From the NCBI GenBank assembly GCA_900290245.1, contig OKRB01000068.1:25134-89133 (forward strand): DNA of 64,000 nucleotides, in the 5' to 3' direction. The DNA is from Candidatus Sulfuritelmatomonas gaucii. Lineage in GTDB: Bacteria; Acidobacteriota; Terriglobia; Terriglobales; Acidobacteriaceae. The notes below the pieces were generated by a model. The model searched no databases. It worked only from the letters and a program-made list of their open reading frames with translations, and was not told where the DNA came from. Below, piece by piece: positions 41,781 through 47,972 of this stretch (position 1 is the stretch's first letter; every line of letters starts with the position of its first letter). Position numbers and translations under genes: made by a program.

Positions 41781-43016
41781 TTAGTGGATCGTCTTGGATT
41801 TTCGCTGCATGTAATCCATCAGCAGGTACTGCCCGAGCGTCGCCGGCGTGGTGAAGTACGCCTTGCCGCGGCACATCTCAGAAACCTTGTGCACGAACTG
41901 CACCAGGCCGTAGTCGCTTGCCAGCATGAATGTATTGATCATGACGTTCGACCGCTTGCAGCGCGCCACCTCTTCGAGGGTCTCGCTCACCACCAGCGGA
42001 TCGAGACCGTAGGGATTCTTGTAGATCCGTCCATCGGGAAGCGTGAGCGCCGAAGGCTTGCCGTCAGTAATCATCACGATCTGCTTCATGTCCTTTTTTT
42101 GCCGGGACAAGACACGTTGTGCCACGCGCAGGCCTTCGCGCGTATTCGTGTGCCAGGGCCCGACTTTCACGCGCGCCAGGTGCGACACGGGCAGCTCTTC
42201 GGCCGAATCGTGAAACAGCACCAGCGAGAGCGAATCTCCCGGATACTGCGTGCGGATGAGATGAGACAGCGCCATGGCCACACGTTTCGCCGGAGTAAAC
42301 CTGTCCTCGCCATACAGGATCATGGAGTGAGAGCAATCGAGCATCATCACCGTCGCGCACGAGCTCTGGTAATCGCACTGGTGCACCTGCAAATCTTCGT
42401 ATTCAAGATTCAAGGGCAGCCCAAGCCCCTTGCGCGAGATCGCCGAGCCCAGTGTCGCCGTCACGTCCAGGTTCAACGTGTCGCCAAATTCATATCTCCG
42501 CGAGCCGCCGCTGGTTTCAACTCCTGTCGCCCAATGCCGCGTATCATGGCGGCCAAAGCTTGATTTGCCCAGCGAACCCATCAAATCGCGCAATGTTTTG
42601 AAGCCAAGAAAGTCCAGGCTCTTATCGGTCACTTCAAACCGCACCTGTCCTTCGGCGTTGCCCGTCTGCCCCTTCGCCTGGTCGATGCGCGTGGGGCCGT
42701 CCTGGTGGAACGAAGAGATGTAGTTCTCCTGCTCCATCCGCTCGATCATCTTGTCGATCAGCTCATCGAGTTTGCCCTCGGCCGCCAGTTGCTGCAGTTG
42801 CTCGCGCATTGCATCGTCAAGAAAATCTTCAGTCTCCAGCACCCGGCGCAGAGCTTCGCGCAAATCATCGAGGGTTTGGTCCAGATCCTGAAAGCCGTTG
42901 TACGGGTCATAGAATCCCGAATTGAGCAGGTAATCAGAGAGCCCCTGCAGCAGACCCTCAAGATCGATTTCTTGAGCCAGATCGCCGTTGTACTTCGTGT
43001 AGTGAACGCGCTTCAT
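41781..43016 (-). CDS. VWA domain protein
   Basis: 411 residues, cytoplasmic. The N-terminal 200 residues are acidic and helical ([20 protein letters not shown]). The von Willebrand A domain from about residue 215 has the MIDAS-like MLDCSHSM (D-x-S-x-S) and [10 protein letters not shown]. This is the metal-binding partner of the MoxR-like ATPase encoded just upstream, the pair resembling magnesium-chelatase subunits D and I or MoxR-VWA chaperone systems. Co-transcribed with the ATPase gene, 49 bp apart across a heptamer tract. Confidence 0.9.
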
Positions 43017-43017
43017 C

Positions 43018-43065
43018 CGCTCTCCGCTCCCAGCTTTGCCGCTCTCTCGATCCCTTGGTCCCTGC
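43018..43065. repeat. Heptamer tract between ATPase and VWA genes
   Basis: GCTCTCCGCTCCCAGCTTTG and following, degenerate CT-rich heptamers filling the 49-bp spacer of the operon. Confidence 0.5.
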
Positions 43066-44625
43066 TTAGTTCAATCCTCCGCCCCTGCGTCTGCGCCGCG
43101 CGCGCTCCCAGTCGTCGTATTCAATCTCCAATTCCTCGCGCTCCCGGCTGCGATTCTCCCGCTCGGGGCCCTGCATTTCGAGATCGCGCTTCCGCGGTCC
43201 CTCCTGCGCGGCAAAGCCATGCTGCTCGTTGCGGCTGAGCTTGCGATGCGCTACCAACCCTTCCAGCAGAAACTCCGCCGCAGCCACCACTTTGGGCGCC
43301 GCGTCGCCGGGCTTCACGCCTAGCGGCGACAGCTTCTCCAGCAGTCCCTGAATGGCTTTCAGCTCCTTCAGCGTCGCCGCGGCCGGCTGCGTTTCGTCGA
43401 GCTTCACCGTTCCGCCCAGGTTGAACCATTGCTCGATGCGCTCCATGTCGGCACCGGCAAAGTAACGGTCGAAGATCTTCCCCACCGCCGTGCGGATCAG
43501 CTCGCGCACCACGGTATCGGCGCCGCGCATCTCGCCTTCATACTCGAGCTCCAGCTTGCCCGTGATCCCGGGCATGGCTGCGTAAAGGTCGCTCACGCGC
43601 GGCAGCACGAGCGCGTCGCCAGTCGCCAGCGCGCGCCGCTCGGCATTCGACACGACCAGCTCCAGCGTCGAAATGGGCAGCCGCTGGCTCACGCCGCTTC
43701 GCTTGTCTACGCGTTTATCCTCGCGCGCCGAGAAAGCCACCTGTTCCACCACTTCGCGCAGATATTGCGGGAGTTCAACGGCTGAGCCGCGATCTTGCCA
43801 GGCCTCCTGCGCCGTGATGGAGATGCCTTCTTCGAGCGTCTCTGGGTAATGCGTGCGAATCTCAGAACCAATGCGGTCCTTCAACGGAGTGATGATCTTG
43901 CCGCGCGCCGTGTAATCCTCGGGATTGGCGCTGAACACGAGCACGAGATCGAGCGCCATCCGCACCGGGTAGCCTTTGATCTGCACATCGCCTTCCTGCA
44001 TGATGTTGAAGAGCGCCACCTGAATCTTGCTGGCGAGGTCCGGCAGTTCGTTGATGGCGAAGAGTCCGCGGTTGGCTCGCGGCAACAGGCCGTAGTGCAT
44101 GGTCAGCTCGCTCGAAAGATTCTCGCCCGCCCGGGCGGCTTTGATCGGATCGAGGTCTCCAATCAAATCCGCCACCGTCACGTCCGGCGTAGCCAGCTTC
44201 TCCACATAGCGGTCGTCTCGCCCGATCCATGCGATCGGCGTCGCGTCTCCGCGCTCGGCGATCAACTCGCGGCAGCGCACGCACAAGGGCCGGTAAGGAT
44301 TGTCGCGAATCTCGCACCCGGCCACATAGGGCATCCGCTCATCCAGCAGAGCTGTCAGCGCGCGCAGAATCCGGCTTTTCGCCTGGCCGCGCAATCCCAG
44401 CAGAATGAAATTCTGTTTTGACAACACGGCATTCACAATCTGCGGGATCACCGTGTCTTCATAACCGACGATTCTAGGGAAAATCGTCTCTTTTGCTCTC
44501 AGGCGAGCGGTCAGGTTGTCGCGCATTTCGTCTTTCACGCTGCGCGACTTCAGTTGTGCTTCGCTGAATTGATGGCTGGACCGCAGTTCAGCCAGGGTTT
44601 GGGGAAGAGGAGTTGCTGCAGGCAT
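43066..44625 (-). CDS. MoxR/ChlI-like AAA+ ATPase
   Basis: 519 residues. AAA+ core with a shortened Walker [12 protein letters not shown] (residues 76-86), Walker B-like [18 protein letters not shown] and sensor 1 [16 protein letters not shown]. An insertion with three cysteines ([17 protein letters not shown]) near residues 100-120 is uncommon and might bind zinc. The last 45 residues are highly charged ([20 protein letters not shown]). With the VWA protein it forms an ATP-driven complex of unknown client, related to magnesium chelatase. The large RNA at 44966-45845 lies upstream and ends in its own terminator. Confidence 0.9.
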
Positions 44626-44965
44626 CCTTTTGACCCCCTGTTATGCGGCTCCGTTCAAAAGCCCCACTGTTTCGTAAGACGCGCACAGCCGGCAAATGGT
44701 GCGGCGACACTGCCCCGCCAGTGGCTGGGCGCACGGTTTGCCGCTCACATGGCCGGCTCTCATTCAAGCGAACATGATGCTCAGGAATGGCTCGAAAAGG
44801 GGAAGACTCTGCACGTAAGAACCGAATCGTGCAAGAGCGCCATGCACGCAGTATGCGCCTATCTGGTCGATTCGCACAAACGGGCTGGCGACGGTGGTGG
44901 CGGGTCAATGATGGAAGGTGTGGGATGGAGGGGGTGGTGTTTTATGCCTGGAAGAAAAATGGCCG
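44626..44965. other. Upstream region of the MoxR-like gene
   Basis: About 340 bp between the ATPase start and the terminator of the large RNA. No credible gene. A promoter for the ATPase operon is expected here on the minus strand. Confidence 0.4.
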
Positions 44966-45001
44966 TAAATTGAAAACGCCAGAGACCGAAGCCTCTGGCG
45001 T
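44966..45001 (-). terminator. Rho-independent terminator of the large noncoding RNA
   Basis: On the minus strand ACGCCAGAGGC-UUCG-GUCUCUGGCGU forms an 11-bp stem (one G-U pair) with a cUUCGg tetraloop at 44976-45001, followed by UUUUCAAUUU. On the plus strand there is no U-rich tail, so direction is minus. Confidence 0.9.
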
Positions 45002-45845
45002 CTCAATCTTGATCACTCGTAGTACAACCGGTTGTTGCGTCCCCCGGTTCCCAGGGGCGAACCTGCAGCTTTCGCTGCCGCTCCTTCCTCGGGCTGCACC
45101 GGCATGAGGATTTCAGGCTTTCGCCGTCCACTCTCGATTCCGGCACGACCGGTGGCCAACTTCCCCGGCTCGGATCGGCGTTCTATCATCTAGCTCGACC
45201 GGTGGCAAAAACCTCCGACTTGCGCCGGCTGTCCCGCTCTTCCGATCGACCTTCGGCTAACCTTCCAGCTTTCGCTGGCGTCCCTCCTCGGGCAAGGCTG
45301 GCGACCACTTCCGATTCACACCTGGCGCTGATCCTTCAACTCGGCTGGTTGAATGGCTTCCGATTCTCACCGGCTGCCATCCGCAGCTTTCAGCTTGCGC
45401 CGTCTGCTGCTGCAACCTCCAGCTCGCACTGGCTGTTGCCCCTTTTGCCAAACCGTCGGCGAACTACCGACTCGCATCGGCTGTTCACCTCCGGCTTCAC
45501 CAGCTTCCACGCCATATGGCTTGCGCCGCATGACGTTTCCCCCGGCTGGGCCTTTGATGCACCCCTTGCTTCAACCGAACCTTGCATCGCCAGCTGAGCC
45601 GTCGATGAGTATTCCGTATCCGCCGGTTCGTGCACCCTCCGGATCTGCCAGCTAAACTCCTGCCGACTTGCGTCGGCTCTTGTCACTTCTGGCGCGGCCA
45701 GCGATCCCTCTGCGGCTTTCGCCTCAGGTTTCACCCTCTGGCTGGGCTGGCGGTGATTTTCCGGTTCTCACCGGCTTTTCGTTTCACCAACCGTTCCGGC
45801 AATCAACTCCCAATGCCCTACTGGGTCATCAGTTGAAGAGACATT
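44966..45845 (-). ncRNA. Candidate large structured noncoding RNA built of repeated GNRA hairpins
   Basis: No plausible protein gene occupies this stretch. Read on the minus strand, it contains at least 13 short hairpins with GNRA tetraloops. Plus-strand positions (loop on the minus strand): 45065-45078 GAAA, 45116-45125 GAAA, 45215-45228 GCAA, 45265-45278 GAAA, 45311-45325 GUGA, 45360-45373 GAGA, 45391-45402 GCAA, 45419-45432 GCGA, 45467-45480 GCGA, 45518-45527 GCAA, 45662-45677 GCAA, 45714-45723 GAAA, 45761-45774 GAGA. Most starts are 46-52 nt apart. The usual core is CCGGY-GNRA-RYYGG, preceded by ACAGC and followed by AGG or AAG with outer pairing such as GAAC/GUUC. Stems vary with compensation. 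A longer stem near the 5' end pairs UCAACU with AGUUGA. The 5' end is only approximate. I cannot assign it to GOLLD, ROOL, OLE, HEARO, RNase P, tmRNA or a group II intron. Confidence 0.8.
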
Positions 45846-46064
45846 ACGTCCGTTCAATCTGTGGATGCAAGTGCAAAAAAGAATTAAATTTGTGGATTTC
45901 ACCAAGGTTGGTGCAGACATGAGCCATTTGTGAATGCGCACAAAGATTTTGAACGAATACGCGCTCGGCTCGCGGCGATTCACGTTTGCGCGCAATGTGT
46001 TTTGTCTCACATTTTGCACACAATCTGCGCGAAATTCACAGCGCTCGGCTGGCTAAGCGGTGGC

Positions 46065-47972
46065 TTATTTCATCGGCTGCGCGTTGGCGGCAGTGAGCGC
46101 GATCGAGTTCGCGCCCGCGTGGAGAGTGATGGCCTGGCTCCACATTAACGGCTGGCCGTTGACCAGTGCGGAGATCATCAGGTAGTAAGTACCGGGCGGA
46201 ACACCGGGGAGAGTCCCATTGCCGCTGGTGTCAGCGCGGACGGCCGATGCTGCGTTGGAGTTGATTGCGGCGAGAATATTCTGGCAGTTCGCGGTGTGCG
46301 GCTGGGGCGCACATGTGAGGGCGACAAAGGCAAACGGCGACACGCCGGCCGGCACGGTGACGCCGCCCTGGGCAAGCGCATCGGCGTAGCTTGAGCGCAA
46401 CAGCACGTAGGGGCGATTGGCGAGCGGATTGGGCGAGCTGGGGAATCCCGAGACAACGGAGAGCGCTGCGTTGCCGAGAGGCTTATCGGGAGTGAAGAGG
46501 CCTGCGGATGGAGTTGCAAGCGCAGTGGCGCCGCCGGCGGAGGGGATCTCCTTGGCCGGAGTGAGCACCGCGAGGTTGCATGTGCGCTCCATGGGCGCGA
46601 AGGTGAAGTCATCGTTGTCGTCCTGGCCGGTGATCATGCGGCCGTGGACCTGGTAGGGACCAGAGCCGGGATCGAGCGAGCCGTCGGCGCGGAAAGCGAT
46701 CGTGAGCGGGTGGTCCGGTGTGGCGATATTGACGACTGCTTTTGTTCCGTCGGCGATGACGGTATAGGGGTACGCTCGCGCTGCATCCGGGCCGCAGCCG
46801 AGAATCGCGGATTCAGGGAAGAACTGCACGCTGAAACCGGTGGACGCAGAGGCGAAGACGCCGTGCATGCGGATGCCGGCCGGCGTGGGCGGGCCCTGGT
46901 CGCCGCCGAACGCGTTCTTGAGCAGATTCGTCTCCATGGTCTCGACGCCGACGCCCGCGCCCTTCGAAGTGAGGTTGATGGCGGGGCAGGTGGCGCGGCG
47001 GGGCACGAAGGTGGTCTGCGGAGCAGTGTAGGTGCCGGGTACGTAGGTGCTCTGGGTGGTGGTGTGAGAATCGACGGTGCCGTCATTGTAGTTTTGGGAG
47101 TAAGTGGTGGTTTCCTTGTTCTCGATATGGCCAGCCGACATGCCGCCGCCGACGGAGCCCCCGGGGACCACGCCGTCGATGGTGACCGGGCCGAGCGGGC
47201 CGGTGATGGTGCCGTCCATGTGCACAGTAAGCACGAGTTGCTTGGGGGTGGTGTGAAGGGTGAGCGTGGCGCGGTTGTTGGCGAGGCTGAGTGAGTAGGT
47301 TTCTTCGTTCGGCGAGAGGAAGGAACAGTTGACGAGAACACCGTCGGTTGTGAAGTCGAGACGCCAGTTGCCGGCGCCCTGAAAGACTCCGGCCATGTTC
47401 GGGCCCGCATCGGGGCCGGTGTCGGCAGGTTTGGCGCCGGCAAGGCTGGAGAGAGTGGAGCTGATCATTCCTGTGAACATGCCAAGCAGGCCGTTGCCGG
47501 TGCAGGTTGATGGCAGGCGATCGGAGGAGACACAGCGGCGCATGGCTCGCTCCTCTGGATCTTTGGGCGGCGGCAGCGCGCCGTAGGAGACGCCGGCGGA
47601 TTGCGCGGGTGCGGCGGCGGGGGCGGGTGCGTTGTTGTATTTGGGTGTTTGCGCGTCGATGAGCGCCTGCTGCTTCTTCTGAAAGGCTTGCTGTGCGGCG
47701 AGCTCCTGCGCGGTGGGCTGCTTGCACGTGGGCAGCAGTTTCTTGAGCGCGCCGCGGGTCATGTAGGTGTAGGTGTTCATGCCGGAAGGGGTGAGGTGAT
47801 CGGGGTGCGCGACCATGCAGGTGGAGGTGTCTGAGGTGTCGCGGATGTTGCAGTTCTCAACGTAGATGCGTTCGCCGTTGCAGAGGTAGGTGACGTTGAG
47901 CTTGATGTCCTGCGCGACGGCAAGCGTGGACGCGAGAAGGGTGACGGCAAGTGCATGGAGGCGGAGGCGCAT
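46065..47972 (-). CDS. Large exported protein of unknown function
   Basis: 635 residues from ATG 47972 with AGGAG 6 nt upstream. Signal peptide (LHALAVTLLASTLAVAQ). Near the N-terminus is a short Cys-containing module (VTYLCNGERIYVENCNIRDT), then a Gln/Ala-rich linker, a paired beta-sandwich-like region (GVFQGAGNWRLDFTTDGVLV and VFASASTGFSVQFFPESAIL, which look like two copies of one domain) and a C-terminal carboxypeptidase-regulatory-like fold (LPGVPPGTYYLMISALVNGQ). No named family. It lies directly upstream of the large RNA on the same strand. Confidence 0.75.
   Translation of the reverse strand: MRLRLHALAVTLLASTLAVAQDIKLNVTYLCNGERIYVENCNIRDTSDTSTCMVAHPDHLTPSGMNTYTYMTRGALKKLLPTCKQPTAQELAAQQAFQKKQQALIDAQTPKYNNAPAPAAAPAQSAGVSYGALPPPKDPEERAMRRCVSSDRLPSTCTGNGLLGMFTGMISSTLSSLAGAKPADTGPDAGPNMAGVFQGAGNWRLDFTTDGVLVNCSFLSPNEETYSLSLANNRATLTLHTTPKQLVLTVHMDGTITGPLGPVTIDGVVPGGSVGGGMSAGHIENKETTTYSQNYNDGTVDSHTTTQSTYVPGTYTAPQTTFVPRRATCPAINLTSKGAGVGVETMETNLLKNAFGGDQGPPTPAGIRMHGVFASASTGFSVQFFPESAILGCGPDAARAYPYTVIADGTKAVVNIATPDHPLTIAFRADGSLDPGSGPYQVHGRMITGQDDNDDFTFAPMERTCNLAVLTPAKEIPSAGGATALATPSAGLFTPDKPLGNAALSVVSGFPSSPNPLANRPYVLLRSSYADALAQGGVTVPAGVSPFAFVALTCAPQPHTANCQNILAAINSNAASAVRADTSGNGTLPGVPPGTYYLMISALVNGQPLMWSQAITLHAGANSIALTAANAQPMK

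Follow-up and report, generated by a model that had tools for sequence, protein, structure and literature searches.

The window analyzed here, a 64,000-nt stretch of Candidatus Sulfuritelmatomonas gaucii (contig OKRB01000068.1), carries what we predict to be a free-standing gene, with transcription of its own, for a large structured noncoding RNA made of tandem 49-nt hairpin modules. All coordinates are positions in the window, and the RNA gene is on the minus strand. It extends from 45915 to 44972 and consists of a promoter-like block, a 5′ domain, a body of ∼49-nt modules, a 3′ element, and a gene-specific terminator. The flanking genes are an AAA/MoxR-like ATPase (43066–44625; its AAA_5 score is just below the cut-off) and a gene at 46065–47972 that gave no match in a Pfam search, with no credible reading frame between the two. 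A first-pass annotation had proposed a large RNA at this place; its coordinates, minus strand, UUCG-loop terminator (45002–44972), and lack of a credible open reading frame are as it had claimed. The features of the window copy are as follows.

45891–45915, minus strand: operator-like element, in which a CACC-N6-GGTG palindrome precedes AAATCCACA; most of the 29 aligned loci have it
45859–45880, minus strand: conserved block TTTTTTGCACTTGCATCCACAG, near-invariant in the 29 loci, with the likely −35 box TTGCAT at 45870–45865
45841–45846, minus strand: likely −10 box TAATGT (pattern TAnnnT), 18 nt downstream of the likely −35 box, placed from the alignment
45796–45837, minus strand: 5′ domain, CAACUGAUGACCCNGUAGGG followed by a YYGG/CCRG helix, from the alignment
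45038–45795, minus strand: body, an array of ∼49-nt modules, from GNRA hairpins and their spacing, the unit model R2, and the orthologue alignment
45751–45801, minus strand: module, R2 26.2 bits (unit model)
45653–45703, minus strand: module, R2 34.1 bits (unit model)
45575–45614, minus strand: conserved core within the array, GAATACTCATCGACGGCTCAGCTGGCGATGCAAGGTTCGG (position in the window copy)
45506–45556, minus strand: module, R2 26.6 bits (unit model)
45409–45458, minus strand: module, R2 35.6 bits, with a GCAAC/GUUGC outer helix enclosing CCAGU-GCGA-GCUGG (training unit)
45350–45405, minus strand: possible module, a chance-level R2 match (14.4 bits, E 0.48), with GNRA hairpins at 45360–45373 and 45391–45402
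45205–45255, minus strand: module, R2 37.9 bits, the best in the window (training unit)
45055–45104, minus strand: module, R2 33.2 bits (unit model)
45005–45037, minus strand: conserved 3′ element (ACUACGAG / ACUGCGAG) ahead of the terminator, from the alignment of 60 RNAs
44972–45002, minus strand: terminator hairpin GACGCCAGAGGC-UUCG-GUCUCUGGCGUUUUC, present in 60 of 60 kept RNAs

Hairpins capped by GNRA tetraloops mark out the body of the RNA. There are 12 in the window copy (≥3 bp, with ≥3 G-C pairs), which confirms the hairpins noted at first pass, although not the count of at least 13 given there. Successive hairpins are 49, 49, 147, 49, 48, 29, 30, 95, 50, 101, and 49 nt apart, so that six of the 11 spacings are 48–50 nt. 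Subtracting the 5′ domain and 3′ element (∼75 nt) from the 835 nt between the inferred start and the terminator leaves 15–16 periods, in keeping with the ∼16 units originally proposed. With stems of at least 4 bp, nine GNRA hairpins were found, compared with a mean of 0.33 and a maximum of three in 1000 dinucleotide shuffles, and the antisense strand had none. Tandem Repeats Finder reported nothing in the window copy because its units are too diverged. Of the six units that the unit model R2 recovered at E < 0.002, two had served in its training; a seventh match (E 0.48) was no better than five chance matches elsewhere in the window (E 0.33–0.85).

For comparison we collected 70 RNA entries and kept 60 RNAs, setting aside three duplicates (L043, L188, and L040), a near-duplicate (L191), a copy at a contig end (L022), four weak 5′ matches lacking a terminator (L173_1, L202, L203, and L204), and, needlessly, one genuine copy (L004). 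Copies known only from loci such as L007–L009, L012, and L013 are outside this set, and the promoter block of the compared RNAs is given by construction of the search. Across 55 related RNAs we counted 557 tetraloop hairpins, of which 386 were GNRA hairpins (≥4 bp; 15.6 in shuffles), the most frequent cap being GCAA (193/557). The pooled spacing histogram had its peak at 49 nt and heaps near 98 and 148 nt. All but four of the 227 unit-model matches over 691 kb were inside the RNA gene and on the RNA strand (from a table read by eye), most of the model's 74 training units having come from the same loci.

Across the sequences compared, module number varies several-fold between copies. The body is 343–1123 nt long in the 55 RNAs and 243–292 nt in five short ones, and most copies have ∼5 to 21 periods, judged by length. 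The lengths of the 55 RNAs showed a period near 49 (P = 0.006 once near-equal lengths had been collapsed, with relatedness among the RNAs not fully removed). Orthologue alignments contained gaps that roughly match one module (47 and 62 columns), and self-similarity at each multiple of 49, up to seven units, was 50–134 times that of the median lag. The idea of an internally duplicated structural RNA, advanced in the first-pass annotation, is supported. Longer periods were also seen: two copies have three-module, 148-nt super-repeats at 79%–80% match (L205:1208–1698 and L159:10434–10794), and in L205 the super-repeat is stronger than the single-module repeat. Among 40 RNAs longer than 600 nt, lag three was the strongest on average, yet it was best in only 11.

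The anatomy of the module was drawn from 131 model-aligned units and 74 chosen units. A short predicted hairpin, H2 (CYGGY-NNN-GCCRG), comes first and is followed by the linker A-R-G-A, the outer helix P1, an internal step, and the GNRA-capped hairpin H1. In the window's clade the internal step is CAG/AGG, and a second clade has GAU/AGA; both are compatible with a predicted tandem G·A pair shifted by one. Stems are variable, and caps and the linker A..RGA are constant, among the aligned units; CGG/CCG pairs adjoin the caps, and unpaired purines are conserved.

Covariation among the aligned sequences supports the GNRA hairpin H1 and the outer helix P1. Tests of P1, H2, and the whole 15-pair structure used 74 of 395 hairpins, at most two per RNA, taken at random among those lying 47–51 nt after another. 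P1 had played no part in choosing the units, and 51.6% of its cells were paired, compared with 44.8% in shuffles and 26%–42% in slid versions; double-change cells numbered 88, compared with 56 in shuffles and at most 50 when slid. Each of the two values, paired fraction and double-change count, was reached by 0 of 500 shuffles. P1 pairs locally, within its own unit: the duplex energy was −4.87 kcal/mol there and −3.10 kcal/mol with random units, and pairing with the neighboring unit (−3.28, compared with −3.38 for random) had no advantage. H2 fits its consensus (63% paired, at most 46% when slid), with a segment fold of −4.08 that is barely under the range of −3.73 to −4.04. We call H2 predicted only, because it fits a complementary consensus but does not covary. 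Pairing between neighboring modules across H2 was rejected as no better than random. The whole 15-pair structure had 186 double-change cells, compared with 106 in shuffles; this figure includes H1, whose covariation in the unit set is by construction because the units were picked for a paired GNRA hairpin.

We also folded ten copies jointly (the window's and nine at 71%–83% identity), obtaining −256 kcal/mol, compared with −82 to −101 kcal/mol in six column shuffles. The joint fold had 88 double-change cells in 38 of 222 pairs, with 83 cells broken; the shuffles, a crude control with fewer pairs and the natural neighbor order lost, had 10–26 double-change cells in 5–12 pairs, with 68–79 broken. 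The minimum free energy z-score was −4.5. The covariation anticipated at first pass was thus borne out in the orthologue fold, H1, and P1, but not in the second hairpin, H2. A closing helix between the ends, suggested by a single-sequence fold, was unclear in a noisy 5′–3′ covariation scan of the 60 RNAs and was set aside.

The gene has well-marked ends. A BLAST comparison of 5 kb around it with seven relatives gave one long block, running from 45903–45929 to 44955–44967 at 68%–82% identity; apart from it, the only matches were to a pair of short internal repeats and to the MoxR gene, 5–8 kb from the RNA in three of the seven. In these alignments the borders of the homologous block coincide with promoter and terminator, and the transcript is predicted to run from near UUCAACUGAUG to the terminator. 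The palindrome is missing in three of the 29 aligned loci (L011, L020, and L042), in which the TCCACA box is still kept. A 17-mer of the conserved block occurs once in the window genome and, among the matches listed, at most once per genome of the genus. A sigma-70 consensus promoter scan found nothing and did not report the likely −10 box. Over the 60 RNAs, one pair of the 5′-domain helix is C-G in 21, U-G in 12, U-A in 12, and unpaired in 15, and the array core GATGCAAAGTTCGG occurs with at most two mismatches in 45, with three mismatches in six, and not in the other nine. The terminator was recognized by a first pattern (0–4 mismatches) in 55 of the 60 and by a second in the other five; one of its pairs is A-U in 50/60 and G-C in 10/60. 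With a strict terminator pattern, 22 of 79 genomes gave 24 matches in all, every one at the RNA gene; the reversed control gave none, and neither did viral contigs. Transcription is spoken for by the conserved promoter-like block and the gene-specific terminator.

A viral contig (IMGVR_UViG_3300036790_000802; L249:1501–1558 and 1655–1804) has the palindrome and the TTTGCACTTGCATCCACAG block without the RNA, an arrangement that suggests promoter DNA rather than a stretch of the RNA itself. There the block, possibly a strong promoter acquired from the host, precedes a 49-residue open frame with one hydrophobic stretch.

No coding signal was found, as the first-pass annotation had expected: in the ten copies no frame of the RNA strand is free of stops or persists as a reading frame, and of 158 indel runs counted against the window copy only four have a length that is a multiple of three (the runs are not 158 events, because many are shared). 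The opposite strand has longer open stretches, of up to 266 codons, in differing frames. A search of Rfam 15 with the window and ten relatives returned no match above the gathering threshold, again as anticipated; the best subthreshold match within 44700–46100 had E 0.082 and 18.5 bits of the 120 needed. The OLE, ROOL, and GOLLD families are contained in the Rfam 15 library, and neither their sequence nor their fold was matched. Nor were Acido-1 and Acido-Lenti-1 matched in this search, assuming that both are in the library. Two motifs of the gene, CUGAUGA in the 5′ domain and the ATCCACA boxes, we take to be look-alikes of the hammerhead and of DnaA boxes, respectively; both were checked through Rfam alone, with no match for the hammerhead.

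ToxI, the antitoxin RNA of type III toxin–antitoxin pairs, also combines tandem repeats in one RNA with a terminator. Unlike ToxI, the present RNA has modules that are diverged hairpins, and no constant toxin gene lies downstream in 61 contexts. Passages of PMC12286853 describe OLE, ROOL, and GOLLD as likewise large, elaborately folded bacterial RNAs whose function is unclear; the tandem-hairpin RNA differs from them in lacking an Rfam match and in being one repeated 49-nt module in variable number. According to parts of PMC2864571, STAXI and the tandem pan motif RNAs also repeat a structured motif, whereas most copies here have ∼5–21 periods in a free-standing gene; the same parts list Acido-1 (RF01686) and Acido-Lenti-1 (RF01687), which are also candidate structured RNAs of Acidobacteria. 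In searches of open-licence PMC papers, none of the titles or abstracts listed described this RNA. We rate the RNA as categorically new, both as a sequence family and as an architecture; its working logic may be an already known one.

The distribution of the gene is narrow. Of 80 genomes of the genus, 66 (including 35 of the 42 good ones) matched a sequence model of the 5′ region, and the unit model added one more (G030), giving 67 of 80 on matches that were not each inspected; the gene was rarely found outside the genus. The match in G010 is weak (29.8 bits, E 1.2e-6, no adjoining unit match). Most genomes have one match, and a single locus holds two copies in each of G034, G014, and G042. 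In a sample of the family, 11 of 200 genomes matched, namely eight of the genus plus G154, G366, and G437; a further genome, G310, was recovered by pattern and carries modules and terminator. The 5′ model also matched named records, Terracidiphilus sp. and Occallatibacter savannae AB23 among them, and by these matches the gene belongs mainly to a single soil-acidobacterial genus, whose records bear the names Terracidiphilus and Occallatibacter. Searches of phage (50,697) and plasmid (72,556) records gave no match to the RNA. The commonest neighbor cluster is an MFS gene, found in 26 of the 61 contexts, 25 of these with it downstream on the opposite strand; the window copy is not among them, and six genomes (G004, G010, G027, G046, G049, and G052) have no RNA within 1.5 kb of the MFS gene, the weak 5′ match of G010 lying elsewhere.

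What might such an RNA do? We lean, tentatively and a little short of even confidence, toward a multivalent docking platform in which each module would hold one copy of the same partner. Stems that vary, caps and linkers that do not, and a module number that changes together suggest that the RNA offers many equal sites. In this picture, RNA dosage would be governed by the promoter block, and the transcript would take the shape of a chain of like modules, each with H2, the purine linker ARGA, P1, the G·A step, and a GNRA-capped H1. The partner, which is most likely an RNA-binding protein, would recognize the cap, the linker, or the G·A step in every module; the RNA would titrate or gather it with a capacity that follows module number. 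Within this reading the start and end, H2, and the G·A step are predicted, and the mechanism as a whole is one we infer. The weight we give to it and to the alternatives below derives from H1, P1, the borders, and the copy number.

By analogy, the working logic would be that of CsrB/RsmZ, built on another module and not involving CsrA. CsrB carries GGA in hairpin loops. The tandem-hairpin RNA has GNRA caps in place of GGA loops and little overall GGA excess, and its genus has no CsrA. In both cases, as we propose here, one regulated RNA would offer many equal sites; passages of PMC5027483 state that CsrB and CsrC bind multiple CsrA dimers.

Several observations weigh against a docking platform. 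No neighbor gene is constant in the 61 contexts, some of them cut short, and no partner was found; the gene went undetected in 13 of the 80 genus genomes, some of which are incomplete. The best studied sponge logic, that of CsrA, is excluded, and GNRA caps with G·A steps also suit packing by RNA alone. On the structural side, some orthologue gaps of 30–33 columns amount to less than one module, and in P1 the counts of pairs changed on both sides and of pair types were not above shuffles. H2 showed no covariation in the tested units (63.3% paired, compared with 63.2% in shuffles; 19 double-change cells, compared with 19.0), and its duplex energy (−4.96) was close to that of re-paired halves (−4.89).

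To our knowledge, large RNAs that grow and shrink by structural modules, as repeat proteins do, are hardly known, and the noncoding RNAs of Acidobacteria, to which this gene adds a large one, have been little studied. The module-wise length variation among relatives (∼240–1123 nt) offers a natural series in which module number can be set against binding capacity or assembly size.

A scaffold of RNA alone, in which the modules pack through GNRA caps and C-G-rich helices and the length of a fiber or assembly follows module number, is the main rival, a possible but less likely account. It would explain the excess of GNRA hairpins (386 in 55 RNAs, 15.6 when shuffled), the CGG/CCG pairs beside the caps, the conserved unpaired purines, the 148-nt three-unit super-repeats of two copies, and the average strength of lag three, and OLE, ROOL, and GOLLD form multimers without protein according to passages of PMC12286853. 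A closed assembly should, however, hold module number fixed, whereas it varies several-fold; the noisy 5′–3′ covariation scan shows no clear long-range helix, and no kissing loops are seen because the caps are GNRA. We give a rather low chance to an elastic RNA polymer, in which equal modules would stack by GNRA docking with a three-module super-repeat and which would be a new RNA class. Were it true, module number would set the size of a natural RNA fiber or ruler that arranges cell components.

We regard it as improbable that the RNA is a precursor cut into module-sized pieces, or that its stems and linkers pair with messengers. The modules are regular, nucleases could cut the purine linkers, and stem sequences are free to vary; but the stems covary, which keeps self-pairing, and the unpaired stretches are short, alike, and poor as specific antisense. 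That the array is untranscribed repeat DNA (REP-like, or a recombination array) or the remnant of a repeat protein seems very improbable: units do duplicate within the array, but in each of the 60 kept RNAs it is bounded by the 5′ domain on one side and the 3′ element with the terminator on the other, its GNRA caps are on one strand only in the window copy, and the RNA strand has stops in all frames and four of 158 indel runs divisible by three.

A sponge for CsrA of the CsrB/RsmZ type can be practically dismissed, because CsrA (PF02599) is absent from all 79 genus genomes searched, in a search that was positive in three of 14 controls, Escherichia coli included. The tandem hairpins and the frequent GGA of the linkers (the window copy has 29 GGA) would favor such a sponge. 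Motif counts over all positions of the 55 RNAs were mixed: GGA was just 15% above shuffles (1662 compared with 1442), and GGAGG (180 vs. 169) and ARGGA (211 vs. 224) were close to them, but GGARGA (148 vs. 94) and ARGGAUG (25 vs. 14) were higher. A Shine-Dalgarno decoy, considered because the linkers resemble GGAGG, was set aside on the same near-shuffle GGAGG count, GGARGA being the higher motif.

Finally, we noted several features of individual loci. One G508 locus of another genus (L220:1240–1600) has two GNRA hairpins with module-like flanks ahead of a presumed 16S rRNA gene, and was rejected as a further copy; its unit matches were counted as chance because the promoter block and terminator of the RNA gene are missing. 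Pairs of copies in the same orientation share one locus in L182/L183 (short copies, ∼3.4 kb apart) and in L156 (∼870 nt apart). At two loci outside the genus (L171 and L172), the RNA gene is near a candidate rpoC on the opposite strand, read without a family search. In the window itself, genes for the MoxR-like ATPase and a von Willebrand A protein stand in tandem at 41781–44625, adjoining the RNA gene.
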